Assembly: GCF_006874585.1 (NCBI RefSeq)
Contig: NZ_CP029761.1
Coordinates: 1,933,001-1,997,000, forward strand
Origin: Sphingomonas sp. IC081
GTDB taxonomy: Bacteria; Pseudomonadota; Alphaproteobacteria; Sphingomonadales; Sphingomonadaceae
Direction: 5' to 3'
Length of the DNA stretch: 64,000 nt
Position numbers and translations under genes: made by a program. Below the pieces are notes generated by a model that was given only the letters and a program-made list of their open reading frames with translations, searched no databases and was not told the DNA's origin. Below are positions 11,912-49,361 of this stretch, piece by piece (the stretch's first letter is position 1; every line of letters begins with the position of its first letter).

Positions 11912-11912
11912 A

Positions 11913-34249: not shown

Positions 34250-34315
34250 TGCACACAAACAACCCGATCGGGCCGGCGCAGCCCTGGCCCGATCTCCGCA
34301 GCATGGGAAAGACCC

Positions 34316-34432: not shown

Positions 34433-35860
34433 TCACCCCGCTGGCGTCAGTCGCTCGGCACCGAAGGCATTTACTGCATGGAGGATGTTGAAGGCGACAA
34501 TCGAGAGAGCCGCTTCGGCCTTTACCGCTCTGAGACCTCGCGTGAGGAACCTTCCGCCGCCGGACATCCGTTTAATCGTGCCGAAGGGGTGCTCTACAGT
34601 ACATCGGCGGGTCACCATCAAGCTCGGATCCGCGTAGATTCTGGCCTCCATACGATCCAGCGCCGCCTGGTCGAACAACCGATGGATGGTCCGTTGGGCG
34701 CCGGACGTGCATCGGCTCTTCAGCCGACAGTCTTTGCATGCAGACGTTCTATATCGGATCGCACGGTTGCGGGTATGTTTGCCGGATGGTCTCAACGTCT
34801 TGCCGGCGGGGCACCGGATTGTGTCGGTCCCCTCATCATACACGAACTGCGCTGGCCGGAAAAAATCGGTGCTCATGGCACCGCGTTTGATCGGCGCCGC
34901 GACCTCAATATGGTCGCGCTCGCATTGCGCGACCGCCTGGGCGTTGGAGTAACCGCCGTCGGCCAGGACTTTGAGCTCGTCAACCTCAAGCACCTCCATC
35001 GTCGCCATCGACATTGGATGCAGGAGCTGGCTGTCGTTTGCCTCGTTGGTCACGTCGTGATGTATGATCAGGCCGCTATCTACATCGACCACGCTTTGCA
35101 TGTTGTAGCAGGGTGTCTTGGGAGAACGTCCATAGCCCATCGGCCGCGCGTCGGACTCGCCAAAGACCAAAGCCGTCTCGTCGCGATCCTTCAGGATGTC
35201 CTGCCGGCGCACGAGCCTGTCCTTGCGGCGCCCGAGGGTCTCGATCGCAGTGGTGAACGCCTCCCGATGTTTGGGCTGATCGTCGAACCCCTGGTCCACT
35301 GCCTCATCTATGATGTCGAGCCGCTCAAGGTAGTAGGCGATCTCCTTTTCGGTGTGCGCAACGTCACGGGCAAGCCGGTCGGCGCCAGCGATGTTCTTTG
35401 AGCTCGCGACCGCGCGCATCTTCGTCCCGTCCAGCGCGACCAATCGACCGCTGATCAAGCCGGTTTCGCGGCAGAACTGGATGAATGCAGCGCTGGCGCC
35501 GACAATGGCTTCCGGATTGTCATGACGAAAGGAGGCGATCGTTCGGTAATCCGGGGCAAGCCGGCGCATTAGCCAAAGCGCTTCGAGGTCGCGGACACAC
35601 GCTCGTTCCAATTGGCGTGAGGACCGAACCTGGTTGAGATAGCCCCAGATGTACAGCCGGAGCATATCGCCTGGATGGTATCCAGGGCGGCCGGTGACCG
35701 CAGCGATAGCGCGACCGAAGCCAAGCTCAGCCAAGTTCAAGCTGGTAACAAAAGCATCGACGACTCGGACCAATGCGTCCGGGGAAACATAGTCATCAAC
35801 ACAAGGAGGAAGCAGGCTGACCTGATCTCGCGCGAGTCCCTCAATAAAACTCATGCACAC
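34433..35860 (-). CDS. IS1182 family transposase
   Basis: 475 residues (SFIEGLARDQVSLLPPCVDD ...). The N-terminal domain (YHPGDMLRLYIWGYLNQVRS) and the DDE parts (LVALDGTKMRAVASS; DSGLIIHHDVTNEANDS; DGGYSNAQAV; HPFGTIKRMSGGGRFLTRGL) are those of IS1182/IS5-like elements. A Cys-rich stretch (SACKDCRLKSRCTSGAQRTI) is also typical. The frame is intact. A likely outer repeat GGCTGTGCAAAAACTCAT lies at 34377-34394, but I could not find a matching copy on the other side, so the element may be trimmed there. Confidence 0.88.
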   Translation of the reverse strand: MCMSFIEGLARDQVSLLPPCVDDYVSPDALVRVVDAFVTSLNLAELGFGRAIAAVTGRPGYHPGDMLRLYIWGYLNQVRSSRQLERACVRDLEALWLMRRLAPDYRTIASFRHDNPEAIVGASAAFIQFCRETGLISGRLVALDGTKMRAVASSKNIAGADRLARDVAHTEKEIAYYLERLDIIDEAVDQGFDDQPKHREAFTTAIETLGRRKDRLVRRQDILKDRDETALVFGESDARPMGYGRSPKTPCYNMQSVVDVDSGLIIHHDVTNEANDSQLLHPMSMATMEVLEVDELKVLADGGYSNAQAVAQCERDHIEVAAPIKRGAMSTDFFRPAQFVYDEGTDTIRCPAGKTLRPSGKHTRNRAIRYRTSACKDCRLKSRCTSGAQRTIHRLFDQAALDRMEARIYADPSLMVTRRCTVEHPFGTIKRMSGGGRFLTRGLRAVKAEAALSIVAFNILHAVNAFGAERLTPAG

Positions 35861-36020
35861 CCCGGCGCGGAAGATGGGAAGATAATTGGATTCTACACTG
35901 ACAGGTTCATGAGTAAAAGCTTGTTATTGGCTTTGAACATCTGCGCCAGGTGGCGTAATAACTCATTACAGATGTTGCGGGCTTCCGAGAAGGATCAGGT
36001 CAGAAGCGCCGGGTTCTCCG

Positions 36021-36470
36021 TTACGTCGAAGCAGTGGCCGCTTGCGCGTCGAGCTGCCACCCGTAGCTTTTGGAATCCGGTACGAGATCGGCGATGGTGA
36101 ACTGATCGAGGTGTCGCGCGAAAGCTTCCAGCGCGCCTGCCAAGGCATGGCGCAAGCCGCATGCGGGCGTCACGACGCAGCTGTTGGTCGCCGCGTCGAA
36201 GCATTCGACGAATGTCCCGGTGTCTTCCATGATGCGCATGATCGAACCGACGTTCAGGGCATTGGCGGGCCGCGTGAGCTTGAGGCTCCCGCTCCGGCCC
36301 CGCACACCCTCGACAAATCCCTCCGCGGCCAGTCGCTGCGCCACTTTCATCAGATGGTTCTTCGAGATGCCATATGCGTGTGCGATCTCGGCGATCGAAT
36401 GGTGGCCGTCCTTCACGGCCAGGAACATCAATGTGCGAAGGGCATAGTCGGTCTGGACGGACAATCTCAT
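36021..36470 (-). CDS. nsrR: Rrf2-family NO-responsive repressor NsrR
   Basis: 149 residues. It has an N-terminal winged helix (HSIAEIAHAYGISKNHLMKV) and three cysteines at 90, 98 and 104 (ECFDAATNSCVVTPAC) that match the iron-sulfur ligands of NsrR. NO binding to the cluster releases the repressor. It is divergent from the truncated haemoglobin gene, and the gap between them holds two NsrR-type sites. The NO reductase in the same cassette supports the assignment. Part of the imported cargo. Confidence 0.88.
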   Translation of the reverse strand: MRLSVQTDYALRTLMFLAVKDGHHSIAEIAHAYGISKNHLMKVAQRLAAEGFVEGVRGRSGSLKLTRPANALNVGSIMRIMEDTGTFVECFDAATNSCVVTPACGLRHALAGALEAFARHLDQFTIADLVPDSKSYGWQLDAQAATAST

Positions 36471-36472
36471 AA

Positions 36473-36495
36473 AAGATGCATATCATATATTGGTT
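36473..36495. promoter_or_regulatory. Weak NsrR-type site at nsrR start
   Basis: AAGATGCATAT, then C, then ATATATTGGTT. The left half matches the NsrR half site AAGATGCATTT well, and the right half poorly (about 6 of 11). It lies directly upstream of the nsrR start codon and could serve autoregulation. Confidence 0.5.
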
Positions 36496-36515
36496 TTATC
36501 CGCCAAGGCGCGTAA

Positions 36516-36538
36516 ACCATGCATAGGAAATTCATCTT
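36516..36538. promoter_or_regulatory. NsrR operator upstream of haemoglobin gene
   Basis: The 11-1-11 arrangement ACCATGCATAG-G-AAATTCATCTT matches the NsrR consensus AAGATGCATTT-N-AAATGCATCTT at 17 of 22 positions. It lies 20 bases before the ATG at 36558 of the plus-strand operon. A start at 36519 would place the operator inside the gene and so is less likely. Confidence 0.65.
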
Positions 36539-36557
36539 AATCGAGTCGAGGCAGGCA

Positions 36558-37010
36558 ATGACGTCGAACCATGCCGAGCAGGCGCGGGCGCGCAAGATGG
36601 CGGATGCGCTCGCCTGCGGGATCGATGATGCTTTCATCTCGCGGCTCGTGGAGAGGTTCTACGACACCGTCCGGCAGGACGACATGCTCGGTCCGATCTT
36701 TGCTGAACGCATCGGCGACTGGCCGCATCATTTGACGCGGATGAAGGATTTCTGGGCCTCGATCATGCTCGAATCCGGTCGGTTCAGCGGCAATCCGATG
36801 CGCAAGCATATCGCGATCGGCGAGCTTGATGAGGCGCATTTCGCGCGCTGGCAGTCGCTTTGGGACCAGACGCTTGACCGGATCGCGCCGAACGCAGCGG
36901 TCGCGGACCGGTTTGGCGAAGCGGCGCAACGCATTGGCGAGAGCTTGCTGACCGGCATCAAGATCGACCGGGGCGGTCTGGCCGCCATTTCCGCGAGGGC
37001 CGCGTCGTGA
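36558..37010 (+). CDS. Group III truncated haemoglobin
   Basis: 150 residues from the ATG at 36558, which has AGGCAGG just upstream; an ATG at 36519 sits within the NsrR operator. The fold is the two-over-two globin of group III (FISRLVERFYDTVRQDDMLG, then WPHHLTRMKDFWASIMLESG and GNPMRKHIAIGELDEAHFAR, with the proximal His in MRKHI). Such globins bind O2 and NO and help in NO detoxification. Its stop lies within the start of the DUF1971 gene. Confidence 0.88.
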   Translation: MTSNHAEQARARKMADALACGIDDAFISRLVERFYDTVRQDDMLGPIFAERIGDWPHHLTRMKDFWASIMLESGRFSGNPMRKHIAIGELDEAHFARWQSLWDQTLDRIAPNAAVADRFGEAAQRIGESLLTGIKIDRGGLAAISARAAS

Positions 37011-37300
37011 CACCGGTCCCCTACGGCGCATCGCCGATCTTCGATGAGCAAAGCCTACCCGACGCGCTGCGCAACGATCATCGCACCAAAGCAGGCACCT
37101 GGGGCCTCCTGCGGATGCTGGAGGGCGAAGTGCGGCTCGTTTTCGTCGATCCGCCGAGCGAGCAGCTCGTGACGCCCGACAGGCCCGCGATCATCCCGCC
37201 GCAGGCAACCCATCATGTCGTTCCGCTCGGCCCCATGACGATGCAGGTCGAGTTCTACCGGGAACGCCCAGAGCTTGTCGAAGACGCGGACCGTGGATGA
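37007..37300 (+). CDS. DUF1971 domain protein
   Basis: 97 residues from a GTG at 37007 that overlaps the globin stop. It is a small cupin-like barrel (NDHRTKAGTWGLLRMLEGEV; PPSEQLVTPDRPAIIPPQAT; LGPMTMQVEFYRERPE). DUF1971 domains occur alone or fused to TehB-type proteins, and small ones are frequent members of NsrR regulons. Function unknown, but the RTKAGxWG and HHVVPLGPM motifs suggest metal or small-molecule binding. Confidence 0.82.
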   Translation: MTPVPYGASPIFDEQSLPDALRNDHRTKAGTWGLLRMLEGEVRLVFVDPPSEQLVTPDRPAIIPPQATHHVVPLGPMTMQVEFYRERPELVEDADRG

Positions 37301-37757
37301 CTTCGCCCTTGCTCGCACGGTGCATGTCATCGCGGTCCTGTTCTGGATAGGCGGCGTCGGTTTCGTCACCTGGGTGCTGATGCCGACGCTTAAGGCAACG
37401 GAACTGCCGCAGGATCGCTTGCGCCGTTTTCAGCAGATGGAGGCGCGCTTTGCCTGGCAGGCACGCGTGTGGGTTCTACTTGCCGGCGCAAGTGGCCTGT
37501 GGCTGGTGGCGCGCGCCGATCTGTGGAGCCGCTTCCTCGACGGCCGGTTCTGGTGGATGCACCTGATGGTCGCGCTCTGGACCGTGTTTGCGCTGATGTT
37601 GTTCGTCATCGAGCCGCTGCATCTCCATCGTCGTCTCGCCAATACACAGTCACCCGAGGCGGATTTCGCTCGAATGATCCGGCTGCATCAGTTATTACTT
37701 GCAGTCAGCATCATAACAATTTTGGGCGCGGTAGGCGGTAGTCACGGACTATTCTGA
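37293..37757 (+). CDS. Integral membrane protein of NO-defence operon
   Basis: 154 residues from a GTG at 37293 (a TTG at 37275 is also possible) overlapping the DUF1971 stop. Four hydrophobic helices are visible: TVHVIAVLFWIGGVGFVTWV, VWVLLAGASGLWLVA, MHLMVALWTVFALMLFVI and LLLAVSIITILGAVGG. Conserved-looking His residues in TM1 and after TM3 (HLHRRLAN) resemble CopD-like or haem-binding membrane proteins. No family is assigned with confidence. It lies 18 bases before norB, so it is likely a partner or helper of NO reductase. Confidence 0.72.
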   Translation: MDDFALARTVHVIAVLFWIGGVGFVTWVLMPTLKATELPQDRLRRFQQMEARFAWQARVWVLLAGASGLWLVARADLWSRFLDGRFWWMHLMVALWTVFALMLFVIEPLHLHRRLANTQSPEADFARMIRLHQLLLAVSIITILGAVGGSHGLF

Positions 37758-37775
37758 ACAGAGGGGGTTTGGGGC

Positions 37776-40079
37776 ATGAAGAGCTATCAAACGACATTCA
37801 GCATCAAAAGGCTGTGGATCATCCTGTCGGTCGGCATGGTGGTCATGTTCGGGATCCTACTGTTGCTCGGGCAGCAGATCTACCAGCAGGCGCCGCCCAT
37901 TCCCGAAGCAGTGAAGTCCCAAAGCGGCGAGACATTGTTCACGCGCGCGGACATCGAGACCGGCCAGAATATCTGGCAGTCGATCGGCGGCATGGAGCAG
38001 GGCTCGATCTGGGGCCATGGCAGCTATCTGGCGCCCGACTGGAGCGCCGACTGGCTGCACCGCGAGGCGGAGGCACTGCTCGCCCTATCGGCCACTCCGC
38101 TCCCCGCGGGCGTGTCCCCCACGCAGGCGGAAGCGATGCGAAAGGCCGCGCTGCAAGAGGAAATGCGCAGGAACAGCTATGACCCCGCGTCCGGCGCCAT
38201 CACGGTCAGCGACACCCGCGCGCGCGCAATTCGGCAGGTGCAGCAGCATTTCGTAAGCCTGTACGATGGCGGCGATCCTGCCTCGCTAAAGCTCCGCCGC
38301 GACTATGCCTTCCCGGTCTATGGCGAGCTGTCGGCCGCGGAAGCCCGGCAGCTTACCGCCTTCTATTTCTGGACGGCCTGGGGGGCGACCACCGATCGTC
38401 CGGGCCAGAACATCACTTATACCAGCAACTGGCCGCACGAACCCCTGGTGGGCAATAGCCCAACCACCGGCACTCTGTTGTGGAGCCTTGCTTCGGTCAT
38501 CCTGCTGCTTGCAGCGGCAGGCGCACTCATCGCCTATTACGCCAAGCAGTTCGACGTCTGGCGCGGCGACATCCTGCCCGAGGGCGGCATGGCGACCTCT
38601 GATCTTCTGGGACAGGCCGTAATCACACCGTCGATGCGGGCTACCGCGAAATATTTCTGGGTCGTCTGCGCGTTGTTCGTGGGGCAGGTGCTGCTGGGCA
38701 TTGTCACCGCTCATTATGCGGTCGAGGGACAAGGGCTCTATGGCCTGCCTTTTGCAGAATATCTTCCCTACACGATCACCCGCACATGGCACACGCAACT
38801 CGCGGTGCTGTGGATCGCCACGGCATGGCTGGCGACCGGGCTCTATGTCGCGCCGATGCTCGGGGGACGCGACCCCAAGTTCCAGCGGCTCGGCGTCAAT
38901 TTCCTGTTCGTCAGCCTGCTGGTCATCGTCATCGGCTCCTTTGCCGGGCAATGGGCGGCCGTCCACCGCTTCTTCACCAGTCTGACGGCGAATTTCTGGT
39001 TCGGGCATCAGGGCTATGAATATGTCGATCTCGGCCGCTTCTGGCAGATCTACCTCCTGATTGGCCTGTTCCTCTGGGTGGCGCTGGTGGTGCGCGCGCT
39101 CTGGCCCGTGCTGCGACGGGAGGGCGGAAAGTCCCTCATCTATCTCGTGCTGGTGTCAGCGCTCGCCATCGGGCTGCTCTACGGCGCGGGGCTGATGTGG
39201 GGTCAGCATACGAACATCGCCATCATGGAATATTGGCGCTGGTGGGTGGTGCATTTGTGGGTCGAGGGCATTTTCGAAGTCTTCGCCACGGCCATCATCT
39301 CGCTGCTGTTCGTCCAGATGGGCATCCTGCGAACCTCTACCGCCACCGTGATGGTGTTGTTCGCGACGATCATCTTCCTGTTCGGCGGGGTGCTCGGGAC
39401 CTTCCATCACCTGTATTTCAGCGGGACGCCGACGTCGGTGATCGCGGTCGGCGCGATGATTTCGGCGTTGGAAGTGGTGCCGCTGCTGGTGGTCGGCTTC
39501 GAAGCCTATACGCGGCACAAGGTCGAGCATGAAGCCGAGTGGGAACGGATTTACCACTGGCCGTTCATGTTTTTCGCCGCCGTCCTGTTCTGGAATCTGG
39601 TCGGCGCCGGCCTGTTCGGCTTCCTCATCAACCCACCGATCGCGCTCTATTACATGCAGGGGTTGAACACGACGGCGAACCATGGCCACGCCGCGCTGTT
39701 CGGCGTCTATGGCATGCTCGGCCTGGGGCTCACGCTCTATTGCATGCGTGGATTGACCGACGTCACGCGATGGAACCAGAAATGGATCAGGATCTCCTTC
39801 TGGTCGCTCAATATCGGCCTTGGAATGATGACCTTCCTGTCGCTGCTCCCGCAGGGCATCCTGCAAACTTATGCCAGCATCGAGCACGGCTATGCCTATG
39901 CGCGCTCAGCGGAGTTCATCCATAGCCCGATCATGCAGGCGCTGGTCTGGGCAAGGGTGCCCGGCGATGTCGTGTTCGCATTCGGCGTCTTCGCGTTCGC
40001 ATGGTTCATGGTTCAGGCGTTCATGCACGGCAGGAAGCCGACTCCAGAAACGGTGGCCATTCCAAAGCCGGCGCCTTAG
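37776..40079 (+). CDS. norB: Quinol-dependent nitric oxide reductase (qNor)
   Basis: 767 residues. About 220 N-terminal residues form a periplasmic domain after one membrane helix (LWIILSVGMVVMFGILLLLG), as in single-subunit qNor. The catalytic part follows with HTQLAVLWIATAWLATGLYV, WWVVHLWVEGIFEVFATAII, HHLYFSGTPT and HGHAALFGVYGMLGLGL carrying haem and FeB ligands. It reduces 2 NO to N2O with electrons from quinol. No nirK/nirS or norC is nearby, so NO detoxification is more likely than respiration. The last gene of the NsrR-controlled operon. Confidence 0.93.
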   Translation: MKSYQTTFSIKRLWIILSVGMVVMFGILLLLGQQIYQQAPPIPEAVKSQSGETLFTRADIETGQNIWQSIGGMEQGSIWGHGSYLAPDWSADWLHREAEALLALSATPLPAGVSPTQAEAMRKAALQEEMRRNSYDPASGAITVSDTRARAIRQVQQHFVSLYDGGDPASLKLRRDYAFPVYGELSAAEARQLTAFYFWTAWGATTDRPGQNITYTSNWPHEPLVGNSPTTGTLLWSLASVILLLAAAGALIAYYAKQFDVWRGDILPEGGMATSDLLGQAVITPSMRATAKYFWVVCALFVGQVLLGIVTAHYAVEGQGLYGLPFAEYLPYTITRTWHTQLAVLWIATAWLATGLYVAPMLGGRDPKFQRLGVNFLFVSLLVIVIGSFAGQWAAVHRFFTSLTANFWFGHQGYEYVDLGRFWQIYLLIGLFLWVALVVRALWPVLRREGGKSLIYLVLVSALAIGLLYGAGLMWGQHTNIAIMEYWRWWVVHLWVEGIFEVFATAIISLLFVQMGILRTSTATVMVLFATIIFLFGGVLGTFHHLYFSGTPTSVIAVGAMISALEVVPLLVVGFEAYTRHKVEHEAEWERIYHWPFMFFAAVLFWNLVGAGLFGFLINPPIALYYMQGLNTTANHGHAALFGVYGMLGLGLTLYCMRGLTDVTRWNQKWIRISFWSLNIGLGMMTFLSLLPQGILQTYASIEHGYAYARSAEFIHSPIMQALVWARVPGDVVFAFGVFAFAWFMVQAFMHGRKPTPETVAIPKPAP

Positions 40080-40423
40080 ATTCGCCACTCCGCTTCCCGG
40101 CTGTACCCCGGTTTTCAACAGACGGCCGGCTAATTTCGGGCGTTGGTCGCTCTCGGCCAACGCCATTTGCCCGTGAAACGGCTTCAGGATCGCCGGACAG
40201 GCTTGCCCGCTCCGTGGGTTTTAGCACAGCCTGGGGGTGTCCCCGCTTGAAGGGGTCTGGCGAGACCCGCCTGGGGCTCGCCAGCAGGGGAAAGCTTTCC
40301 CCCTCAAACCGGAAAATGATAGCAGCAAAAAGACACCATCCGCACACTAAAGCGAGGTGGATTAGAATACAGCGGGCGGAATCGGATTGCGTCCGGGAGG
40401 GCTATTAGCTTGGGGGAAAGTCT
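40080..40423. other. Structured non-coding region after norB
   Basis: 344 bases with no credible gene but several inverted repeats: CTGGCGAG...CTCGCCAG near 40257-40284, a perfect palindrome GGGGAAAGCTTTCCCC at 40287-40302, and shorter GGGG/CCCC hairpins near 40235-40256. The G/C-block layout is like that of replication or mobilisation regions of small plasmids, so it may be a junction left by an earlier insertion. It separates the NO cassette from the defence region. Confidence 0.45.
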
Positions 40424-40969
40424 ATGGACTGGTCACAATTAACCGGAGCCCTGATCGGTCTCGTGGGTGTCCCTCTGGGCATCATATTGGGGGAGTTATT
40501 GAGACGACGGCAAAGAGCAGAACAATTCGCAGCGGCGATCTTCGCCAAGCGCCTCGAAGCCTACGACTCGCTTATAAGTATCCTATTTGACAGCCACCGG
40601 ATCGCGAACGAAGTGATCGACAATGCGAACCTGTCGGCGGCCGAGCGGCACGAGCTGATCTCCGCAGCCATCATGCCGATCGCGGAACATACAACGCGCA
40701 GCGTCCTCTATATAGACGAGGAACTGGGCGCCCATTGCACCGCGCTTTTCATGGGTGTGGAAGACCTGCGCGACCTGCCCGAAAGCGAACGTCAAGCGCG
40801 TCTCGCGCAATTCCAACGGGATTGGAGAGAAACTCGCCGGATGATCCTTGAGGACTCTGGGGCCATCAAGGTCAATCGGCTGTTCCGCGACATCAATCGC
40901 CCCACGCTCAGCTCACCCGTTATCGAGCGCATTCGAGAATTGCGGCGCGAGCAGGGCAGCGAAATCTGA
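40424..40969 (+). CDS. Unknown membrane-anchored protein
   Basis: 181 residues (MDWSQLTGALIGLVGVPLGI ...). One N-terminal membrane helix (ALIGLVGVPLGIILGELL) is followed by a charged, mostly helical cytoplasmic part (RQRAEQFAAAIFAKRLEAYD; SERQARLAQFQRDWRETRRM). No domain is recognised. It is convergent to qatD, 52 bases away. The AT content is a little higher than in neighbours. Position beside Qat raises the possibility of a defence role, but there is no sequence proof. Confidence 0.65.
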   Translation: MDWSQLTGALIGLVGVPLGIILGELLRRRQRAEQFAAAIFAKRLEAYDSLISILFDSHRIANEVIDNANLSAAERHELISAAIMPIAEHTTRSVLYIDEELGAHCTALFMGVEDLRDLPESERQARLAQFQRDWRETRRMILEDSGAIKVNRLFRDINRPTLSSPVIERIRELRREQGSEI

Positions 40970-41021
40970 GACGACCTCTGCCCAGCCAGCGGCGATAGAG
41001 CTTCGATCTTACGGGTGGCGT

Positions 41022-41774
41022 CTATGCTTGTTCTACAAGCAGGCTTTTGAGATTCCGCATTATCGTGGCGGACATATCAGCGGGCGGCATTCCGTGCAGA
41101 CGCGCCATACCTTCGACAGCGATCCAGACATCGCTCGGCGTGGTCGGACGGGCGTCGGTCTGAGTGAATGGCCCATCTGTCTCCGTCAGAACGCGATCCA
41201 ACGGGAGCGCCTTGGTAATCGCCGCGCGCTTCTCATTCGCGAGCATCTCCGCGTTCAACGAAAAATAGCAGCCGAGATCGACTGCTCTCTTGGCCTCTGC
41301 TGCGGTGCCCGTGAACCAATGAAGCACCACGCGCCCGCGCGGGGGCGGCATGTATTGCTCAATCATATCGAGGACGGCCTTGGTCGCGCGGACGCTATGC
41401 GTCGTGACGATCTTGTTCCCCGCCGCCGCACACAGCGTCAGCACGCGAGCGAAAATCTCCTTCTGCATCTCGAACGACCTGTAGAACCGCGGGCCGGCGT
41501 CCAGCCCGACCTCGCCGACATAGCGGGTGCGCGGCAGCAATTCCTCCCATAGCCCGATCTCATGAGCGCGTTCGGCGACCAGTTGAGGATGCAGGCCGAG
41601 AGCCGCCCGAACATGATGCGTGGCGGACGCCAGTTCGTGGTTTCGCGGCCAAGCCTTGGGGGTGGTAGTCACGGTGAGAGTGAACACGCCATCGCGCTCG
41701 CAGCGCTCCACCGCGGCCGCGTGGTCGGGGTAGAGATCGAGGTGGCAATGAAAATCGACGAGACCCGATCGCAT
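41022..41774 (-). CDS. qatD: Qat anti-phage system TatD-like nuclease QatD
   Basis: 250 residues. A TatD-type metal-dependent hydrolase: DFHCHLDLYPD (HxH), GEVGLDAGPRF (Glu and Asp), VTTHSVRATKAVLDMIE, VVLHWFTGTAAEA and TETDGPF (Asp). These give the usual two-metal DNase site. The gene closes the qatABCD operon and lies 8 bases after qatC. In the known Qat system all four genes are needed for phage defence; the mechanism is not solved. Confidence 0.9.
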   Translation of the reverse strand: MRSGLVDFHCHLDLYPDHAAAVERCERDGVFTLTVTTTPKAWPRNHELASATHHVRAALGLHPQLVAERAHEIGLWEELLPRTRYVGEVGLDAGPRFYRSFEMQKEIFARVLTLCAAAGNKIVTTHSVRATKAVLDMIEQYMPPPRGRVVLHWFTGTAAEAKRAVDLGCYFSLNAEMLANEKRAAITKALPLDRVLTETDGPFTQTDARPTTPSDVWIAVEGMARLHGMPPADMSATIMRNLKSLLVEQA

Positions 41775-41782
41775 GGGGCCTC

Positions 41783-43132
41783 TTACGACGGTGCGGCGCG
41801 AACGCCAGTCAGCAAGCGTCCAACCTCCTCCAATCCGCGGCGATAGACATCGGCCAGATCATCGTGGCGGGAGGGATCATCATAGAGCGGCCCCGGCTTG
41901 TGGATGAGGGCCTTGGCGAGTTCCGGGCGCTTCGATAGCCTCGCGACCGCGATCTGGAAGGATCGGACCTGCTGACCTTCGGCCTGCCTGGTGTCCAACG
42001 TGGCAGCCTTCAGGTCGGGTACGCCGTAAACTGTCGAATCCTTGCCTCGCAGAGAGGCTCGCCGAATGAGACACGGCAGGCAGTATCCGCAGTGCCCCTG
42101 CGGCTTCTTGGTCCAGCGCCCCTTCGTCGGTGACGAACATGATAGCGACAGCGGGGCGAGCTGCTTCAACAGGGTCGGATTGGCGCACTCGGCGACCATT
42201 TCTCCCTTGGTCTTGTCCCAATAGGGATTCTCGACCTTCCCTCCGACACCAAGCGCGCCAAGCAATTCGTTCCACCGGGCCATGTAGAAAGGATGCGTCG
42301 TCCGGGTGCTGAGCGCACCGAGCCGGAGCCGATCGAGCGGCACGTTGAGCGCGATCAGACCGTTCTCGGGAACCTTGAGCACGAAGGCGCGGTCGAGCGC
42401 CGTGCCGGCGGCGACACCCAGCGAGAAGAACAGGAAGGATCGACCGCGTGTGGTGTCCTCCGATCCGACATCCTCGACAAACCCGCTATCGAAGCTCATC
42501 CACACCCGCAGCCGATCGAAGGCAGATGCTTTATAAGCGGCTTTCAAACCGTCGAAGCACTGCTCCTGCGACTTGCTCACCAGTCCTTCGCCAGCATGGC
42601 TGACCAGAAGCGGCGTCTCGCCGGCATTCAAGCTGTCGATCGCGCCGATCAGGCTGTCCAAGCCACCGGAGAACAGACTCACGCCATCGAACGGGGCGGG
42701 AATAAGGGTGGGTGCCGCGACGGGAACCAGCTTCGCATAGCCCTTGGCCCGTTTGCGGAAACCCACATCCCATCTGTCGCCTGTCAGAAAGTTCAGGGCG
42801 CGGACCAGGATGGGCGCCGCGGCCGTCCATCGCACCGGATCGCTCACCGGGATGACCAGCCGAATCTCGCGCGTCCAGGCGTCCTGCGATTCGGTCGAGC
42901 GGGAGATGCGTGTGTCTGCGGCATGAACATGGGCCGCGACCACCAGTATGTCCGCGCCGATCTCGCTCGGTGTCAGATGCAAAGCTTTGAGGTCGGCCAA
43001 GGCATGGCCGATCCCATGATCGAGACGCTTGCCCGCCACCAACTGCAAGGTCGATGCAACCTCGTCGCGCGCCTTGGGGACGCGGGTCTTATCGTCCGGC
43101 CCGAAACGGCCGATGATGACATGGCGCCTCAT
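41783..43132 (-). CDS. qatC: Qat anti-phage system QueC-like protein QatC
   Basis: 449 residues. A PP-loop of the QueC/ATP-pyrophosphatase type, LFSGGLDSLIGAIDSLNAG, lies at about residue 152, and a Cys cluster GHCGYCLPCLIRR near 365 resembles the zinc site of QueC (7-cyano-7-deazaguanine synthase). The N-terminal 140 residues are specific to QatC. It overlaps qatB by 4 bases. Likely modifies DNA, RNA or protein in the defence response. Confidence 0.9.
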   Translation of the reverse strand: MRRHVIIGRFGPDDKTRVPKARDEVASTLQLVAGKRLDHGIGHALADLKALHLTPSEIGADILVVAAHVHAADTRISRSTESQDAWTREIRLVIPVSDPVRWTAAAPILVRALNFLTGDRWDVGFRKRAKGYAKLVPVAAPTLIPAPFDGVSLFSGGLDSLIGAIDSLNAGETPLLVSHAGEGLVSKSQEQCFDGLKAAYKASAFDRLRVWMSFDSGFVEDVGSEDTTRGRSFLFFSLGVAAGTALDRAFVLKVPENGLIALNVPLDRLRLGALSTRTTHPFYMARWNELLGALGVGGKVENPYWDKTKGEMVAECANPTLLKQLAPLSLSCSSPTKGRWTKKPQGHCGYCLPCLIRRASLRGKDSTVYGVPDLKAATLDTRQAEGQQVRSFQIAVARLSKRPELAKALIHKPGPLYDDPSRHDDLADVYRRGLEEVGRLLTGVRAAPS

Positions 43133-44013
43133 TTCGCTGCCTCCCCATCGCCCATCGTCTGCAACACGTCGAAGGCGGATTGATAGACGCTGGTTACGAA
43201 GCCCATCACTGCATCGGGGGTCAGCGACTGAATATTGACGCCCGCGGCGTTGATCGCGTCGCTGACACCACGCTGGATGAAATCACGCAGTTGCGCCTGA
43301 ACCCTCTCGGCCGCGCGTGGGTCGGCGGGCAAAGTCACGACCTTGGTGCCGATGTCGTTGCAGATGCGCGCCTCGATCGCGTGCGTCGCGTATAGTTCGA
43401 AGACGGTCTGGATCTGGCCCGGTGTCAGCGCGTCGATGTCGGTAATGCCCGCACCGGCGAGATCGGCGATGGTCTCGACGAAGGCGTCCCGCGCGATGCC
43501 CTCGTCTATCGACCCGCCTTCGGGGCAGATGTAATCGGCGAGTCCCGCGAACACTTCCTCGATCGGACGCCCGGCGAGGCTTTCGAGGTTGAGCGTTCGC
43601 AGCGCTTCGCGAACGCCATTCGCGCTGGCGTCGTTGAGGAACCTGACCAGTCCAGCGCCCGCGCCCCGTGATGAGCCCATGCGCTGCGCGGCCTGGCGTG
43701 AGCCGCCCGCCGATTTGGACACATATTGCGAGACCGCGCGGCCGAGGCTCTTGCGGTCGCTTCCGCCCGAACTTGCGAAGCGAGTGAAATTGTTTCGGGC
43801 CGATGTGAACCGATCCGATGCTCCTGCCGGCGCGGTCGGCCGCGGCGCTGGTGCTGGAGGAACGGCTGGAGGCGATCCATCAGGTGACGGCGGCTGTGCC
43901 CCGTCGCCATCACCCGCGCCCGCACCGGCCCCGCCGTCACCGTCGCCCTGCAACCAACTCGGGATCAACGGCGTGCCACCACCTGCGCCCCCATAAGCGT
44001 TCGACGTTCCCAT
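43129..44013 (-). CDS. qatB: Qat anti-phage system protein QatB
   Basis: 294 residues from the ATG at 44013 (MGTSNAYGGAGGGTPLIPSW), which overlaps the qatA stop by ATGA. Gly/Pro/Ala-rich N-terminal 70 residues, then a conserved helical part (RFTSARNNFTRFASSGGSDR, then GRAVSQYVSKSAGGSRQAAQ). QatB has no known catalytic motif; identification is by its N-terminal sequence and its place between a KAP ATPase and a QueC-like gene. Confidence 0.88.
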   Translation of the reverse strand: MGTSNAYGGAGGGTPLIPSWLQGDGDGGAGAGAGDGDGAQPPSPDGSPPAVPPAPAPRPTAPAGASDRFTSARNNFTRFASSGGSDRKSLGRAVSQYVSKSAGGSRQAAQRMGSSRGAGAGLVRFLNDASANGVREALRTLNLESLAGRPIEEVFAGLADYICPEGGSIDEGIARDAFVETIADLAGAGITDIDALTPGQIQTVFELYATHAIEARICNDIGTKVVTLPADPRAAERVQAQLRDFIQRGVSDAINAAGVNIQSLTPDAVMGFVTSVYQSAFDVLQTMGDGEAAK

Positions 44014-45971
44014 CAGCGCCCGCCTTTTCGAGTGCGAAGCGCGGCGCTGGCCGTCGTCTTCAGGAAGGAAGATTGAGACGTGGACCATCCCTGGAGTAGC
44101 TTCTCGAAGCGCGCCACGGCGTCAGAGTCCTTGATGATTCCCTCCCAACCTGACGCGGGCCACGGCCCGCACCGATCGGCTGGCACGGCTTCGAGCAAGT
44201 CGAGAAGATTGGCTTGCAATGTCGGATGGGCGCGAACCAGCACCGCGAGCCCGTCAATGCCGGGCGGAGCCGTATCGAAGGCGTCGCCACCCATTACGCG
44301 CCCTCGCAGCTCCTCGAAGACCTGCGCGGCCTCGGCCGGAACGAGCTGCTTGAGTTCGCCTTCGAACGCCTGGACGGCAAGTTTCGGGCCGAGCAGCTTC
44401 TCGACCACAGCGGCGAGACGCCCGAGGACGGAGGCCGCGCCGAAGTAGTCCTTCCGATCCTTGGTCACGAACAGATAGGGGCGCAGATCGACTTCGGCCA
44501 AGGCCGGTGACAGCCGCGCCCAGGCCCGTATCGCGTCGGCCGCCTTCCATTCCGTCAGGATGGCGCTGTCCTTGGAGTCCGGCACGGCGGTCGGCTTGGC
44601 GTCATCGGTGGAACTGATCTTAGGCCCGGCCCGCTTCGCCTTGGGGGCTGGCTTCTCCTCGGGCGCAGCGGCTTCAAGCGCCGCCAAATCTACGCAGCGG
44701 CCGTCCGGATCACGGGCAGCGGCGCTTGCGATCTGGTCGAACAATCTGGAGAGGAACCGTTCGGCCAGCATGAGCTTCGCCAGAACGGGCAGCTTCACCT
44801 CTTCTCCGAAGCCGCGAGCGAGCGCGGTCTGATGGCGCAGCAGCAGGGTGTTCAGGAAGCGCTTGATCTGCCGCGGATTGCCCTGAGTGCCGCTGGCCAG
44901 GATCGGACCGATCTGGTCGCTCAAGGTGAGCGCGTTCTGGACCTGGCCGGCTTTGTCGCCCAAGGCGGTCTTGACCGTCTGCGCGTCGAGCCCGGCCGTC
45001 TTCCAGGGCCGTTTGAGCAATTCTCGCGCGACGGTGATGAGCGCGGAGTAAGCGGGATCGTCCTCGCCCAGCTCGGCGCCGATGAGCAACAGGGTGACGT
45101 AGATGCGGGTTTCGGTCTCGCCCAAGGCCGGAATCCGGAACGGAATCTGGATCAGCTTTTCGAGATAGTTGCGCGCATAGTCGCGGGGTCCGGTCGTGTC
45201 CGGCAGCTCGGGGAAATGTTTGCGCACCGAATATTCGATCATCGCCTCGTCGGCCGCGACGATGAACGCGGTGCGGGCGGTGAAGACGAACAGCCGGACG
45301 GCTTCGAGCGTTTCGATCGCCGTGTCCGGCAGGCAGCGGTCGAGATCGTCGATGAGGACGATCAGTTGCTTGATGCCCGCCTGCTTGAGCAGATCGTCAA
45401 AAGCTTTCCGGAACGCCTCGATCTCTTCCGGCACATTTTTCGACTCTCCCGGCTTCAGCAGACCTTGCACACCGTCGATCGCTTTGTCGTAATTCTCCTG
45501 CGTGGCGAGTTTCGAGGGATCGGAGAAGATACCCTTCAAGGTGCCGACCACCGCGCCGATCTGATCGGCTGTGGGAATGCCGGTGAATGCGGTGAAAGCG
45601 AGCCCGCCCCCGTGCCGCGCGATCTTTAGCCAATCGATCCGCCGGAAGATGTCTTTCACGGCTACGCCGGCTTGGGTGAGCAACGGGCGTTTTTCGATAA
45701 GCCCGGTGACGATGCCCTCGATCAGCGCGATTTTGGCGTCTTCGAATCCTTGAAAGCGCCATCCGTTGAATTTGATGCAGAGCACGTCCTCATCCGAACT
45801 GAGGCCGTTTTCGATCATCTCCAAGATGCTGGATTTGCCCGCACCCCAGTCGCCGTGAACGCCGATCGTCACGGCGCGCTCGGGCTTTTCGCGCAGCAGC
45901 TCGATGATGGTCTTGGCGATCGCCTCATTGTTGAGGAGATCGACTTTTGTCTCATTGTCAGTGAGAATCAT
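44013..45971 (-). CDS. qatA: Qat anti-phage system KAP ATPase QatA
   Basis: 652 residues from the ATG at 45971 (MILTDNETKVDLLNNEAIAK). A KAP-family P-loop NTPase: Walker A at about 42 (VHGDWGAGKSSILEMIENGL), Walker B near 205 (LIVLIDDLDRCLPDTAIETL) and a sensor region GNPRQIKRFLNTLLLRH. A predicted hydrophobic insertion is present at about 125-145 (GGGLAFTAFTGIPTADQIG). First gene of the Qat operon; the frame is open to 46097 but with no ribosome-binding site. Confidence 0.9.
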   Translation of the reverse strand: MILTDNETKVDLLNNEAIAKTIIELLREKPERAVTIGVHGDWGAGKSSILEMIENGLSSDEDVLCIKFNGWRFQGFEDAKIALIEGIVTGLIEKRPLLTQAGVAVKDIFRRIDWLKIARHGGGLAFTAFTGIPTADQIGAVVGTLKGIFSDPSKLATQENYDKAIDGVQGLLKPGESKNVPEEIEAFRKAFDDLLKQAGIKQLIVLIDDLDRCLPDTAIETLEAVRLFVFTARTAFIVAADEAMIEYSVRKHFPELPDTTGPRDYARNYLEKLIQIPFRIPALGETETRIYVTLLLIGAELGEDDPAYSALITVARELLKRPWKTAGLDAQTVKTALGDKAGQVQNALTLSDQIGPILASGTQGNPRQIKRFLNTLLLRHQTALARGFGEEVKLPVLAKLMLAERFLSRLFDQIASAAARDPDGRCVDLAALEAAAPEEKPAPKAKRAGPKISSTDDAKPTAVPDSKDSAILTEWKAADAIRAWARLSPALAEVDLRPYLFVTKDRKDYFGAASVLGRLAAVVEKLLGPKLAVQAFEGELKQLVPAEAAQVFEELRGRVMGGDAFDTAPPGIDGLAVLVRAHPTLQANLLDLLEAVPADRCGPWPASGWEGIIKDSDAVARFEKLLQGWSTSQSSFLKTTASAALRTRKGGR

Positions 45972-46174
45972 CCCGCCCCCGTCCTCCCCGCGACTCGCAG
46001 CGGTTGTAATAGTGAAGCCCCGCACGCAACACTGCCGGAAGAAGATAGGTTTCGCCATATGTTCTGGCCTTGGGCCAGTCCAACGAGACGCAACCAAGCA
46101 GTTTCTTCTTCTATCGGTCCTGATTCACCTGGAGGGACTTTCGGGAGGATGTGATGCCGGTGGAAGGCTCCACC

Positions 46175-46202
46175 TTGACAATGTAATGTATTTTCCTTAC
46201 AT
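46175..46202 (+). promoter_or_regulatory. Promoter and inverted-repeat operator of prlF-yhaV
   Basis: TTGACA at 46175-46180 and TTACAT at 46197-46202, 16 bases apart, form a likely sigma-70 promoter. An inverted repeat ATGTAA (46181-46186) and TTACAT (46197-46202) overlaps the spacer and -10, a fitting place for autorepression by the PrlF-YhaV complex. It is 23 bases before the antitoxin ATG. Confidence 0.55.
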
Positions 46203-46225
46203 GCAGCGGGCAGAGGAGATGAGCC

Positions 46226-46552
46226 ATGCCCGCATTGCTCGAAGAAATCAGCACCATCACCGCCAAGGGCCAGACGACGATTCCGAAGTCCGTCCGCCAG
46301 GCGCTCGGCGTCGATTACGGCGGCAAGATCGCTTTCCGCGTCGATGAGCATGGCGTGTCGGTGCATCGCGCCGATGCCGAGCATGACGATCCGGCGATCG
46401 ACAGCTTTCTGACGTTTCTGGCCGAGGATATCAAACGCCGGCCCGAGGCGCTGACTGCGCTTTCCCCCGCGCTCGCCGAACGCATTGCGGCGCTAACCGA
46501 GGGCGTTAAGGTCGATCTCGATGCGCCGATCGACGGCGATGTCGATCTCTGA
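46226..46552 (+). CDS. prlF: Antitoxin of the PrlF (SohA) family
   Basis: 108 residues. An AbrB/SpoVT-like swapped-hairpin DNA-binding domain lies in the first 50 (ISTITAKGQTTIPKSVRQAL, then GGKIAFRVDEHGVSVHRADA). The C-terminal half (DSFLTFLAEDIKRRPEALTA) is the toxin-binding part. It overlaps the toxin gene by one base at TGATG (46550-46554), which couples the two. Autoregulation is likely via the inverted repeat at 46181-46202. Confidence 0.9.
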   Translation: MPALLEEISTITAKGQTTIPKSVRQALGVDYGGKIAFRVDEHGVSVHRADAEHDDPAIDSFLTFLAEDIKRRPEALTALSPALAERIAALTEGVKVDLDAPIDGDVDL

Positions 46553-47043
46553 TGATGGTCGTCAATGGGTGGCAACTCATTGCCCACCCTCTGTTTCTCG
46601 ATCAATTCGAGAAGTTGGGGGCGGCCGTCGCGCGTCTGCGGGAGAAAGACCCGCGCGGCTGGCGCAAATCGGCCAATGCGAAATTGCTGGAAGCGCTGCG
46701 CCAGCTCGTATTCGAGACCATTCCCCAAGACCCCACGCGCCCGGAATATCGGCAGGGGGGCACGTTGGGCGACGATCGCAAACACTGGTTCCGGGCGAAG
46801 TTTGGCGGCGGCCGGTTCCGGCTATTCTTCCGCTACAGCACCAGCGCGAAGGTCATCGTGTTCGCCTGGGTGAACGACGAGACCACGCTGCGCACCTATG
46901 GATCGAAGTCAGACGCGTATGCGGTGTTCCGCAAGATGCTCGACAAGGGCAACCCGCCCGACGATTGGGCGGTGCTGCTGGCGGCCGCGAGCGAGTCGGA
47001 AGCGAGGGAGCGTTTGGGGGCAGCTTCGCCAGACCCGCCATGA
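46552..47043 (+). CDS. yhaV: YhaV-family toxin ribonuclease
   Basis: 163 residues (MMVVNGWQLIAHPLFLDQFE ...). The YhaV pattern is seen in HWFRAKFGGGRFRLFFRYST and VIVFAWVNDETTLRTYGSKS, RelE-fold ribonuclease elements, followed by DAYAVFRKMLDKGNPPDDW. YhaV is an RNase that acts on translating ribosomes and is silenced by PrlF. The pair may stabilise the element after integration. Confidence 0.9.
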   Translation: MMVVNGWQLIAHPLFLDQFEKLGAAVARLREKDPRGWRKSANAKLLEALRQLVFETIPQDPTRPEYRQGGTLGDDRKHWFRAKFGGGRFRLFFRYSTSAKVIVFAWVNDETTLRTYGSKSDAYAVFRKMLDKGNPPDDWAVLLAAASESEARERLGAASPDPP

Positions 47044-47110
47044 GCCCCTATCTGCGCTACGCCCGGTCGAACCAATTGCGCCCTGCGTGGCCGCGCGGCA
47101 GCGTTGCGGC

Positions 47111-47359
47111 ATGGCCCTGCCTCGCAAACGTCGTCGCCGCGCGCCCCGCGGCTGGTCGGAAGGTCTCGAAGACCTGCACGACTATATGCGCGCGCCGCCG
47201 CAGCGAGCCGCGCCCCGCGCGCGCGTCATCAAGGATAGCGGCGCGATCGTCGTCACGGACGACTGGCCCGAGCGGGTTCCCATCGGCGACGCCGAGTTGC
47301 GCAGCATCGAAGGCCATTTGCGCAAGGAGTTGGACGACCTGTTCGGACCCGTGCCGTGA
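47111..47359 (+). CDS. Small protein of unknown function before recombinase
   Basis: 82 residues from the ATG at 47111 (MALPRKRRRRAPRGWSEGLE). Very basic N terminus, then EDLHDYMRAPPQRAAPRARV and acidic end (DDWPERVPIGDAELRSIEGH). No family recognised. It ends 18 bases before the recombinase start on the same strand, so it may be co-transcribed. A directionality-factor or regulator role is possible by position only. Confidence 0.65.
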   Translation: MALPRKRRRRAPRGWSEGLEDLHDYMRAPPQRAAPRARVIKDSGAIVVTDDWPERVPIGDAELRSIEGHLRKELDDLFGPVP

Positions 47360-47377
47360 GATAAGGAGGATCATGCC

Positions 47378-49075
47378 ATGACCGACGCCGCCCTTCGCGT
47401 CGAGGAAACCCCGCCGGTCGTGGCGACCGCCCGTGCTGCGCTCTACCTACGGGTCTCGACCGGCCGGCAGGCCGAGAGCGACCTGTCGATTCCCGACCAG
47501 CGCCGCCAGATCGAAGGCTATTGCCTGTCGCGCGGCTGGGAGGTCGCGGCCGAGTTCGTCGAGCCGGGCAACACCGCGACCGACGATCGCCGACCTGCCT
47601 TTCAAGCCATGATCGACGCGGCGATGACAAAGCCCCCGACGTTCACCGTCATCGTCGTTCATAGCTTCTCGCGGTTCTTCCGCGACCAGTTCCAGTTCGA
47701 GTTCTACGTCCGCAAGCTGGCGAAGAACGGGGTGAAGCTCGTCTCGATCACGCAAGACCTGGGTGACGATCCGATGAGCATCATGATGCGTCAGATCATG
47801 ACGCTGTTCGACGAATATCAGTCGAAAGAGAATGGGAAGCATACGCTTCGGGCGATGAAGGAGAATGCCCGGCAAGGCTTCTGGAATGGCGCCCGCGCGC
47901 CGATCGGCTACCGCGTGGTGGCGGCCGGGGAGCGCGGCGCGAAGATCAAGAAGAAGCTGGAGATCGACCCGATCCAGGCCGAGACGGTGCGACGCATCTA
48001 CCGCATGGCGCTCAACGGCGTCGATAACCGGGGGGCGATGGGCCTCAAGTCGATCGCCACCTGGCTCAATGAGAACAATATCCGCACTCGCGACGGCGGG
48101 CGCTGGGGATTGGGCGCGGTCCATCAAGTGCTCACCCGCACGACCTATATCGGGCAGCACCGCTTCAACACCCGCGATCACAAGACGAAGACGCCGAAGC
48201 CGGAGAGCGAGCACGCCGTCATGGAAGTGCCGGCGATTGTCTCGGAAGCGGAGTTCGAGGCCGTCCAGCGTTCGCTCAAGGCTCGCAGCCCGAAGATGAT
48301 GCCGCCGATGGCGGTGGGCGGCCCTACGCTGCTTACCGGCATCTGCTTCTGCGCGTGCTGCGGCGGCGCGATGACGCTGCGCACGGGCACCAGCAGCGTC
48401 GGGCGGGAATATCGCTATTACACCTGCTCGACGAAGGCGCGGCAGGGTGCGACCGGCTGTCCCGGCATCACCGTGCCTATGGACCGGCTCAATGAGGCCG
48501 TGGTCGATCATCTCGAAGCGCGGCTGCTCGACCCGGCACGGCTCGAAGCTCTGATGGATCAGATCCTCGAACGCCGCGACGAGTGGGTCAACCAGCGCCG
48601 CGAGCATGTCGCCGATCTTGAGCGGCGGGCGACCGAGGCGGAAGCCAAGCTCAAGCGCCTCTATGACGCGATTGAGAACGGGGTGATCGACGTGAGCGAC
48701 CCTTCGCTGAAAGATCGCATTGCCGAGCTGACCGCGACGCGGGACCAAGCCAAGGGCGATTCCGAGCGCGCCTTGGCGCATATCGTGAAGATCGGCCCGG
48801 CGATCACGCCCGAGAGCCTGCGTGCGTTCGCGGCCGCCCTTCGCAAGAAGCTACGCAATGGAGACGGGACGTTTGCCCGCGATCAGGTGCGGGCGGTCGC
48901 GCAGCGCGTGGAAGTCGTGAGCCGGAAAGAGGTTCGTATCCGTGGACTGCGGAGCGAATTGCTCCGAACGCTAACCGCCGCCTCTGGCGTAGAGGCGGCG
49001 GTGCTAGGCGTTCGTGCCTTTGAACCGAAATGGCGCGCCCGGAACGATTCGAACGTCCGACCCTCAGATTCGTAG
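47378..49075 (+). CDS. Large serine recombinase (ICE integrase)
   Basis: 565 residues. A resolvase domain with catalytic Ser27 (ALYLRVSTGRQAESDLS), the DRRPAFQAMI segment and FDEYQSKENGKHTLRAMKEN. A recombinase domain (GFWNGARAPIGYR; GVDNRGAMGLKSIATWLNEN) and a zinc ribbon at about 320-355 (CFCACCGGAM ... YYTCSTKARQ) follow, then a coiled coil (LERRATEAEAKLKRLYDAIE). The last 13 or so codons (ARNDSNVRPSDS) are read from the antisense strand of tRNA-Arg, and the stop is in the tRNA anticodon region. This places the attachment site at or within the tRNA. Confidence 0.92.
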   Translation: MTDAALRVEETPPVVATARAALYLRVSTGRQAESDLSIPDQRRQIEGYCLSRGWEVAAEFVEPGNTATDDRRPAFQAMIDAAMTKPPTFTVIVVHSFSRFFRDQFQFEFYVRKLAKNGVKLVSITQDLGDDPMSIMMRQIMTLFDEYQSKENGKHTLRAMKENARQGFWNGARAPIGYRVVAAGERGAKIKKKLEIDPIQAETVRRIYRMALNGVDNRGAMGLKSIATWLNENNIRTRDGGRWGLGAVHQVLTRTTYIGQHRFNTRDHKTKTPKPESEHAVMEVPAIVSEAEFEAVQRSLKARSPKMMPPMAVGGPTLLTGICFCACCGGAMTLRTGTSSVGREYRYYTCSTKARQGATGCPGITVPMDRLNEAVVDHLEARLLDPARLEALMDQILERRDEWVNQRREHVADLERRATEAEAKLKRLYDAIENGVIDVSDPSLKDRIAELTATRDQAKGDSERALAHIVKIGPAITPESLRAFAAALRKKLRNGDGTFARDQVRAVAQRVEVVSRKEVRIRGLRSELLRTLTAASGVEAAVLGVRAFEPKWRARNDSNVRPSDS

Positions 49076-49107
49076 TCTGATGCTCTATCCAGCTGAGCTA
49101 CGGGCGC
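49031..49107 (-). tRNA. tRNA-Arg (ACG), copy 1 at ICE junction
   Basis: 77 bases including an encoded CCA. Cloverleaf arms: acceptor GCGCCCG/CGGGCGC, D arm GCTC/GAGC, anticodon stem TCAGA/TCTGA around the loop CTACGAA (anticodon ACG), T loop TTCGAAT. The 3' end overlaps the end of the serine recombinase, so this copy borders the ICE. Confidence 0.95.
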
Positions 49108-49159
49108 GCACGATGCCCTATGTAAGGCTCGAAAGGCCTGGGACCTTTCGAAGGAAAAA

Positions 49160-49236
49160 TGGCGCGCCCGGAACGATTCGAACGTCCGACCCTCAGATTC
49201 GTAGTCTGATGCTCTATCCAGCTGAGCTACGGGCGC
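49160..49236 (-). tRNA. tRNA-Arg (ACG), copy 2
   Basis: Identical to copy 1 over all 77 bases, with the same cloverleaf and anticodon ACG. 52 bases separate it from copy 1. The spacer holds CGAAAGG...CCTTTCG, a short hairpin that may help processing. Confidence 0.95.
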
Positions 49237-49284
49237 GTGCCAATTTTCTTTCCAACCAAGGCCACATTTTCCCCGAGAGGAAAG

Positions 49285-49361
49285 TGGCGCGCCCGGAACG
49301 ATTCGAACGTCCGACCCTCAGATTCGTAGTCTGATGCTCTATCCAGCTGAGCTACGGGCGC
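49285..49361 (-). tRNA. tRNA-Arg (ACG), copy 3
   Basis: Identical to the other two copies over 77 bases. It is the first transcribed of the array (minus strand) and is next to a likely promoter. 48 bases separate it from copy 2. All three genes keep the encoded CCA. Confidence 0.95.

Follow-up and report, generated by a model that had tools for sequence, protein, structure and literature searches.

Recombinases that disrupt their own gene are called exclusively archaeal in the part of a 2021 review available to us (PMC8371274). In the archaeal suicidal integrases (SSV1, pTN3, pT26-2), the attachment site of the element (attP) lies within the integrase gene, which is split upon integration. 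We here describe a probable counterpart in a 64,000-nucleotide stretch of Sphingomonas sp. IC081 (contig NZ_CP029761.1, positions 1,933,001 to 1,997,000; G000:C1:1933001-1997000 in our numbering, hereafter "the window"). It concerns a 59,655-bp element, an integrative and conjugative element (ICE) as judged by its gene content, whose large serine recombinase, P0001, reads across the right end of the element into the antisense of a tRNA-Arg gene. Its two junctions, if joined in a free circle, would likewise place attP within the recombinase gene. The archaeal enzymes, however, are tyrosine recombinases that are cut into N- and C-terminal parts, whereas P0001 is of the serine type, would lose only 17 residues, receives a new end from the target tRNA, and retains its three known domains in one open reading frame (ORF). 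These domains stay whole because only the 17 codons past a tryptophan (W552) are removed.

A second comparison concerns the staphylococcal cassette chromosome (SCC) and its Ccr recombinases. SCC elements insert at the 3' end of a gene, rlmH, and their modules stack in arrays; insertion at a gene's 3' end is found here, too, and relatives carry runs of modules that resemble such stacking. CcrB is the best curated family match of P0001, although the scores against the CcrA, CcrB and CcrC models (39, 110 and 70.5 bits) pass none of the respective cut-offs (700, 900 and 900). The target differs, being the CCA end of a tRNA gene instead of rlmH, as does the probable location of the attachment site inside the recombinase gene. 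P0001 is also similar to the phage large serine integrases of A118, SPbeta (YokA) and TP901-1, as seen in domain order and in sequence comparison with the solved structures.

Integration at tRNA genes is a habit of tyrosine integrases, and the duplicated tRNA 3' end that these leave at the far junction is absent here. Of 23 tyrosine systems in Mycobacterium abscessus, 16 overlap a tRNA or tmRNA gene, and for the six serine systems the available part of that report mentions no tRNA overlap (PMC10654092). Integrative and mobilizable elements (IMEs) and ICEs with a serine recombinase as integrase share short core repeats with the present element, and the site-specific serine IMEs are described, in the portion of the source at hand, as disrupting dispensable genes, whereas the tRNA is kept intact here (PMC5704250). 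Among the literature matches listed, in which subscription journals are thinly covered and bioRxiv preprints absent so that an earlier description is possible, none reports attP lying within the gene of a serine recombinase, and neither do the available parts of PMC12884075, PMC11476347, PMC9960961, PMC4741004 and PMC3556126.

Junctions, empty sites and a tail at the far end

P0001 carries the Pfam domains Resolvase (N-terminal), Recombinase and Zn_ribbon_recom, and its structural model contains helices at residues 386-433 and 442-472 consistent with a coiled coil, which together place it among the large serine recombinases. In the initial annotation, the end of this gene and its stop codon lie antisense to a tRNA-Arg(ACG) gene, the first of three identical copies. 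ORF and ARAGORN coordinates confirm this, and the three minus-strand tRNA genes are the same at all 77 bases. The C terminus reads ...FEPKWRARNDSNVRPSDS followed by the stop; the last 14 codons plus the stop overlap tRNA copy 1, with the W552 codon, TGG at 49031-49033, being the antisense of the tRNA's CCA. That annotation was equally right in having the ICE inserted by a serine recombinase at the 3' end of a tRNA, and in predicting that the same C terminus would be regenerated at any identical tRNA copy.

Where does the element end on its other side? An element-free relative of the same genus (G006) is colinear with the Sphingomonas sp. IC081 genome (G000) up to the tRNA, and in the latter the homology stops at TGGCGC at either end: left of its tRNA array, the G006 chromosome matches G000 up to about 10.6 kb before the window, and homology resumes at the tRNA. 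The left junction reads ...GGTAGCAAG-TGGCGC-CCCGCGCTGGATAAACATAACG, the right junction ...GAACCGAAA-TGGCGC-GCCCGGAACG (the latter part being tRNA), and the empty site of G006 ...CTGGCAAT-TGGTGC-GCCCGGAACG. Two further relatives (G002, G005) have the same flanking gene beside an unoccupied tRNA array, while in a third (G024) the match begins about 1.6 kb further out and covers only the more distant part of the flank. The left junction thus lies 10.6 kb beyond the window.

The two junctions have only the 6-base core in common and therefore no tRNA 3' end has been duplicated. The initial annotation had named a tRNA-derived repeat at the left junction as the mark of its proposal, and a junction without one as grounds for giving it up; beyond TGGCGC there is no such repeat. 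Integration at the tRNA nonetheless stands, because serine recombinases leave short cores only, and a short core, TGGCGC, is what we find both here and in a second element from Sinorhizobium meliloti (below). Two further points need revision. From both junctions, attP would lie within the recombinase gene instead of in a carried tRNA copy, and the native C terminus would not be tRNA-coded at all: at the far left end, the recombinase frame goes on directly past TGG, as W-RPALDKHNEYVSPLTLL and a stop, so that the element starts with TGG and a tail, WRPALDKHNEYVSPLTLL, of 17 residues. An alternative reading of this left end, as a tail PRAG plus stop, was dropped as it is in the wrong frame.

Several tRNA copies are native: the four element-free loci have three (G006), four (G002), two (G005) and two (G024) copies, and across 19 loci of same-genus relatives we count one copy at 11, two at five, three at two and four at one.

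The second, independent case comes from pSymB of S. meliloti ml21, whose recombinase is 51% identical to P0001 and ends, ...SFVRKWRTRQDSNL plus stop, in an antisense tRNA. An exact empty site for this 38,553-bp element is present on the replicon of another strain; TGGCGC stands at both junctions, and at the left end the frame runs on as WRAREDETGHSYVIVAPIHF and a stop. The records read after a search with this tail include four further left ends, all distinct and located on plasmids of Nitrobacter, Rhizobium (two) and Mesorhizobium, encoding WRAGRDENGHSYVIVCAL, WRAGQDETGNSYLLVASI and WRAGEDETGNCYTLAAAL, each followed by a stop, and WRATEDETGHSYVI..., which runs past the usual stop. All four keep WRA..DE.G..Y, and none is joined to a recombinase. 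Past W, three of the five Hyphomicrobiales tails have 17 residues, as in Sphingomonas, and that of S. meliloti has 19. A second element group thus keeps its own tail of similar length.

Together, we consider it highly probable that P0001 is a Ccr-like large serine recombinase with attP inside its own gene, near the 3' end, and that integration swaps the tail of the enzyme. In the predicted free circle, the gene would read ...FEPK-W-RPALDKHNEYVSPLTLL plus stop, i.e. ...FEPKWRPALDKHNEYVSPLTLL plus stop. The putative attP would span codon W552, with the ...FEPK codons as one arm, TGGCGC as core and the codons of the 17-residue tail as the other arm; joining ...GAACCGAAA to TGGCGCCCCGCGCTGGATAAAC gives its presumed sequence, ...CCGAAATGGCGCCCCGCGCTGGATAAAC.... 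The enzyme would recombine attP with its target site (attB), formed by the CCA end of a tRNA gene, of which the conserved arm would be the tRNA acceptor and T-arm, and the opposite side merely loosely A-rich. Integration would keep the tRNA intact and land the body of the recombinase beside it, closed by W-RARNDSNVRPSDS and a stop. In this way, the native 17 residues past W would be replaced by 13 from the antisense tRNA, and the native tail would come to lie at the opposite end of the element.

Tails and targets across relatives

The left-end search gave many matches that start at, or a few bases from, TGG, and in the recombinase frame these mostly encode W[RC]P..DKHNEY[VI]SPF..L followed by a stop. 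With a DNA pattern that spans the first 31 bases, 48 left ends and 39 tails of 57 bases, all of them distinct, were obtained from the fetched loci (L176-L179 were left out of this tail set and of the flank reading below). The stop sits at the same codon, 17 residues past W (18 codons counting W), in 37 of the 39, the exceptions being a decayed tail (L149; GGG for TGG and CAG for the stop) and one lengthened by CTA repeats, with a later stop (L205). In the 37 tails, the ratio of nonsynonymous to synonymous polymorphism (pN/pS) over codons 1-16 past W is 0.44 in frame, as compared to 0.90 and 0.95 in the shifted frames. In a set of 27 tails, which are all but L149 of the 28 unique ones found by a pattern over the first 11 codons, diversity increases past the stop, and column shuffling gave a ratio as low as the observed one in 2 of 300 trials. 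Since the tail sequences are related, these statistics are indications and not independent trials.

Could the tail be DNA only? On this account, its sequence is conserved as an attP arm, the open frame is incidental, and the recombinase functionally ends at about FEPKW, the remainder being harmless. Tail codons 5-10 are indeed conserved at almost all positions, much like a binding site, the tRNA-coded tails vary by target and yet the elements spread, and residues 535-565 are disordered in the AlphaFold model of P0001 (mean pLDDT, the model's per-residue confidence score, 68). The codon pattern, however, weakens it: the stop is fixed, the silent bias is confined to the recombinase frame, and divergence goes up past the stop. 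In addition, the Hyphomicrobiales tails keep residues of their own, in most cases over the same length. We therefore rate the DNA-only account as possible, though on the unlikely side.

The left-end pattern, with up to three mismatches, was found in 32 of 48 recombinase-bearing genomes, and its backward-read control in none of the 48. A shorter exact pattern matched 10 of 298 genomes of the family and, in a class-wide sample, 1 of 385 (the genome studied here), and the Sphingomonadaceae tail therefore has no wide distribution within this sample. In 14 genomes, a left end and the recombinase share a contig (contigs being matched by length), with order and orientation as expected and a distance of 7.5 to 72 kb between them. 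The outer sides of 49 left ends, classed by eye, consist of host or unassigned DNA (39), the end of another module (8) and recombinase-like relics (2); a loose script put 12 of them as cassette-like, including L148, L149, L201 and L202. Among the 35 flanks that the script took for host DNA, A is the most frequent base at all of the final six positions. The two relics (L141, L166) resemble the 3' ends of recombinase genes and run into the tail without a change of frame, that of L166 as ...SFVREWRPVQDKHNEYVSPFALP plus stop and that of L141 similarly. The former aligns to P0001 as two displaced pieces; the L141/L209 relic has no match to P0001 at an E value of 1e-3 and is named for its similar ending alone.

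At the other end of the element, a scan of species genomes confirmed 112 relatives of the recombinase, and the counts that follow refer to the best 80 of these 112. At 61 of the 80 loci, the recombinase runs in frame into an intact tRNA gene that starts exactly at the W codon: Arg-ACG (22), Arg-CCG (20), Arg-CCT (8), Arg-TCT (6), Thr-CGT (3), Leu-CAA (1) and Leu-CAG (1). These loci share descent and hence do not represent 61 independent events. The remainder comprises 12 loci with only the 3' part of a tRNA, three with a broken or truncated recombinase, two contigs ending at the junction, and two further loci discussed below. CCGAA(A/G)TGG stands at 72 of 75 readable junctions, and a variant with one or two bases changed at the other three. 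The C terminus varies with the target (e.g. ...WRTRQDSNL or ...WCARQDSNLWPPD, each followed by a stop), with DSN, read from the T-loop, being present in 72 of 73 tRNA-joined recombinases; tRNA-coded tails extend 3 to 58 residues past W, and 8, 12, 13 or 20 residues in 58 of the 61. One genome (G024) combines an empty Arg-ACG locus on one contig with a recombinase relative at Arg-CCT on another.

These counts also bear on whether the overlap is an accident of annotation, the true product ending elsewhere and the tRNA read-through remaining untranslated. Antisense tRNA frames are often open by chance, which would favour such an explanation. Between the recombinase domains and the tRNA, however, P0001 has no stop, leaving the ribosome without an earlier place to terminate, and the frame enters the tRNA at 73 of the 80 loci (61 with an intact and 12 with a partial tRNA), making the accident very unlikely. 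The expectation of the initial annotation that the element carries and rebuilds a tRNA 3' end in the ordinary way agrees with its position exactly at a tRNA 3' end, but has hardly any probability left, being already contradicted by a left junction that has TGGCGC alone in common with the tRNA, by an S. meliloti arm that is tRNA-like over 18 bases but with two mismatches, and by the serine type of the recombinase.

A number of observations nevertheless weigh against a tail-swapping recombinase. Most directly, no intact recombinase joined to the tail was found: a 37-residue joined peptide searched against 72,556 plasmid records returned a single record, matching in the tail part only, and the genome loci that we read hold broken relics and no intact joined gene. 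The circle is therefore a prediction. In 16 of the 48 recombinase-bearing genomes, some with diverged recombinases and some being drafts or metagenome-assembled genomes, the left-end pattern had no match. Two of the 80 loci show no tRNA-like sequence at the junction, and two plasmid-borne relatives (L172, L173) end in KWRTTMASKPTAAR and KWRAIC, each followed by a stop, with neither tRNA nor tail after KWR. The first ten tail codons, which would also be an attP arm, are conserved at almost every base, and over codons 11-16, outside the search pattern, the coding signal of the 37 tails is weaker (pN/pS of 0.61 versus 0.92 and 1.09). With residues 535-565 disordered, a structural role of the tail is unreadable from the model. 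Finally, a search for the Rhizobium-type tail in 26 genomes gave nothing, a result that says little.

Some individual loci are worth recording. The single plasmid match, in a Sphingobium plasmid (L239:6004), has its left end inside an ORF (5647-6060), starts at TGG, and adjoins a gene annotated as glucan 1,4-alpha-glucosidase; it is likely an off-target insertion. The complete genome of Sphingomonas sp. QA11 (L205) harbours a mini-element of 7.5 kb that has both ends, together with a frameshifted recombinase and the CTA-lengthened tail. Beside six recombinases, the tRNA is broken at or near the anticodon loop (Arg-ACG in L045, L054, L081 and L109; Arg-TCT in L068; Arg-CCG in L122), as if a second element, perhaps of the tyrosine type, had entered the same tRNA. 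In L085 and L099, the contigs stop at, or a few bases from, the attachment core, which would fit more than one join having been encountered at this point during assembly. In viral contigs, the left-end pattern gave four matches, all of them by chance, with no TGG ahead of the motif.

Two predicted C termini and a possible link to the direction of the reaction

What might the swapped tail do? If both forms are translated, the enzyme would exist with two C termini, the tRNA-coded ...DSNVRPSDS and the native ...DKHNEYVSPLTLL. A single integrated copy makes the tRNA-tailed enzyme only, and thus it is presumably this form that excises and the tailed form that integrates; the tail may therefore act in directionality. 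Our best guess is that the tail marks the free state, with the tailed form favouring integration and the tRNA-tailed form carrying out excision. More tentatively, and we would rather doubt it than rely on it, the swap could be a built-in direction switch, in which the tailed enzyme integrates while its tRNA-tailed counterpart is either silenced for re-integration or licensed to excise. If true, the element would read its own state from the adjoining DNA, using host antisense tRNA as protein code, and this would replace or accompany a separate directionality factor.

Irrespective of such a switch, a tail-swapping recombinase would extend the self-splitting integrase gene to bacteria and to the serine recombinases, in a milder version where the end that is lost comes from the target tRNA instead. 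It would explain odd recombinase endings, such as ...RNDSNVRPSDS, as antisense tRNA, and give an exact way to find both ends of ICEs that are hard to map for their short cores. It further provides a testable model of how a serine integrase might tell the free from the integrated state. As a putative general half of attB, the tRNA T-arm may serve integration tools.

Gene content and runs of modules

Between its defined ends, the element encodes a relaxase, a coupling protein and type IV secretion genes, the gene content of an ICE (Table 1). Among the latter, the T2SSE-type ATPase is presumably TrbB-like. Besides the nitric oxide reductase gene, carried as cargo, the element encodes an AcrB-type efflux pump and, at the left end, a chromate transporter. 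The hairpin in the 3' end of the recombinase gene could serve as a terminator for the tRNA transcripts, because insertion has moved the terminator-like hairpin of the empty site 59.7 kb away. As a part of attP this hairpin was set aside, given that it is strong in close relatives only.

Table 1. Features of the element and its target in the window (positions count from the first base of the window)
Feature	Position	Strand	Remark
Element portion in window	1..49030	+	start at window -10624 (L026 position 9376, G000:C1:1922376)
TrbI, conjugation machinery	7675..8895	-	
TrbG	8892..10391	-	
TrbL	10601..11938	-	
TrbE ATPase	12975..15587	-	
T2SSE-type ATPase	16071..17114	-	
TraG coupling protein	19026..20999	-	
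Relaxase	21015..22889	-	DUF3363/Relaxase; RlxS-like, under RlxS model cut-off
Nitric oxide reductase, NorB-type cargo gene	37776-40079		cytochrome c-like and COX1 domains
PrlF-type antitoxin	46226..46552	+	
YhaV-type toxin	46552..47043	+	adjoins recombinase
Large serine recombinase P0001, 565 aa, integrated form	47378..49075	+	residues 553-565 from antisense tRNA
Strong hairpin, 12-bp stem, in recombinase gene 3' end	48974..49002	-	faces tRNA transcripts
Element right end, presumed P half of attP	48992..49030	+	codes for EAAVLGVRAFEPK; putative half-site limits
Core TGGCGC common to both junctions	49031..49036	.	antisense of tRNA CCA end and adjoining bases
Codons from antisense tRNA, RARNDSNVRPSDS and stop	49034..49075	+	
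tRNA-Arg(ACG) copy 1, occupied attB, intact after integration	49031..49107	-	ARAGORN
tRNA-Arg(ACG) copy 2, free	49160..49236	-	ARAGORN
tRNA-Arg(ACG) copy 3, free	49285..49361	-	ARAGORN

The initial annotation had further suggested that tandem tRNA copies could allow tandem arrays of the element. Arrays do occur in relatives; they are built from modules added at the left end, however, and use of several tRNA copies was not seen in them. The genome studied here has one left end by the exact pattern, while several others have two to four in a row. Runs of modules, each starting with a tail-coding left end, are present in L154, L155, L159, L163, L164 and L165, and, judged by analogy, their arrangement resembles the stacking of SCC. 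An identical spacing of exactly 5,226 bases between two left ends recurs in four genomes from different genera (L156:9975-15201, and likewise G049, G052 and G054). The 5,226-bp module, as read in L156, encodes SIR2- and Piwi-type proteins that match short-Argonaute defence models, without a P0001-like recombinase. The cargo of other modules includes a metal P-type ATPase with CopB and two pyridine nucleotide-disulphide oxidoreductases, and GGCGG repeats precede TGG in most of the eight module ends that we read.

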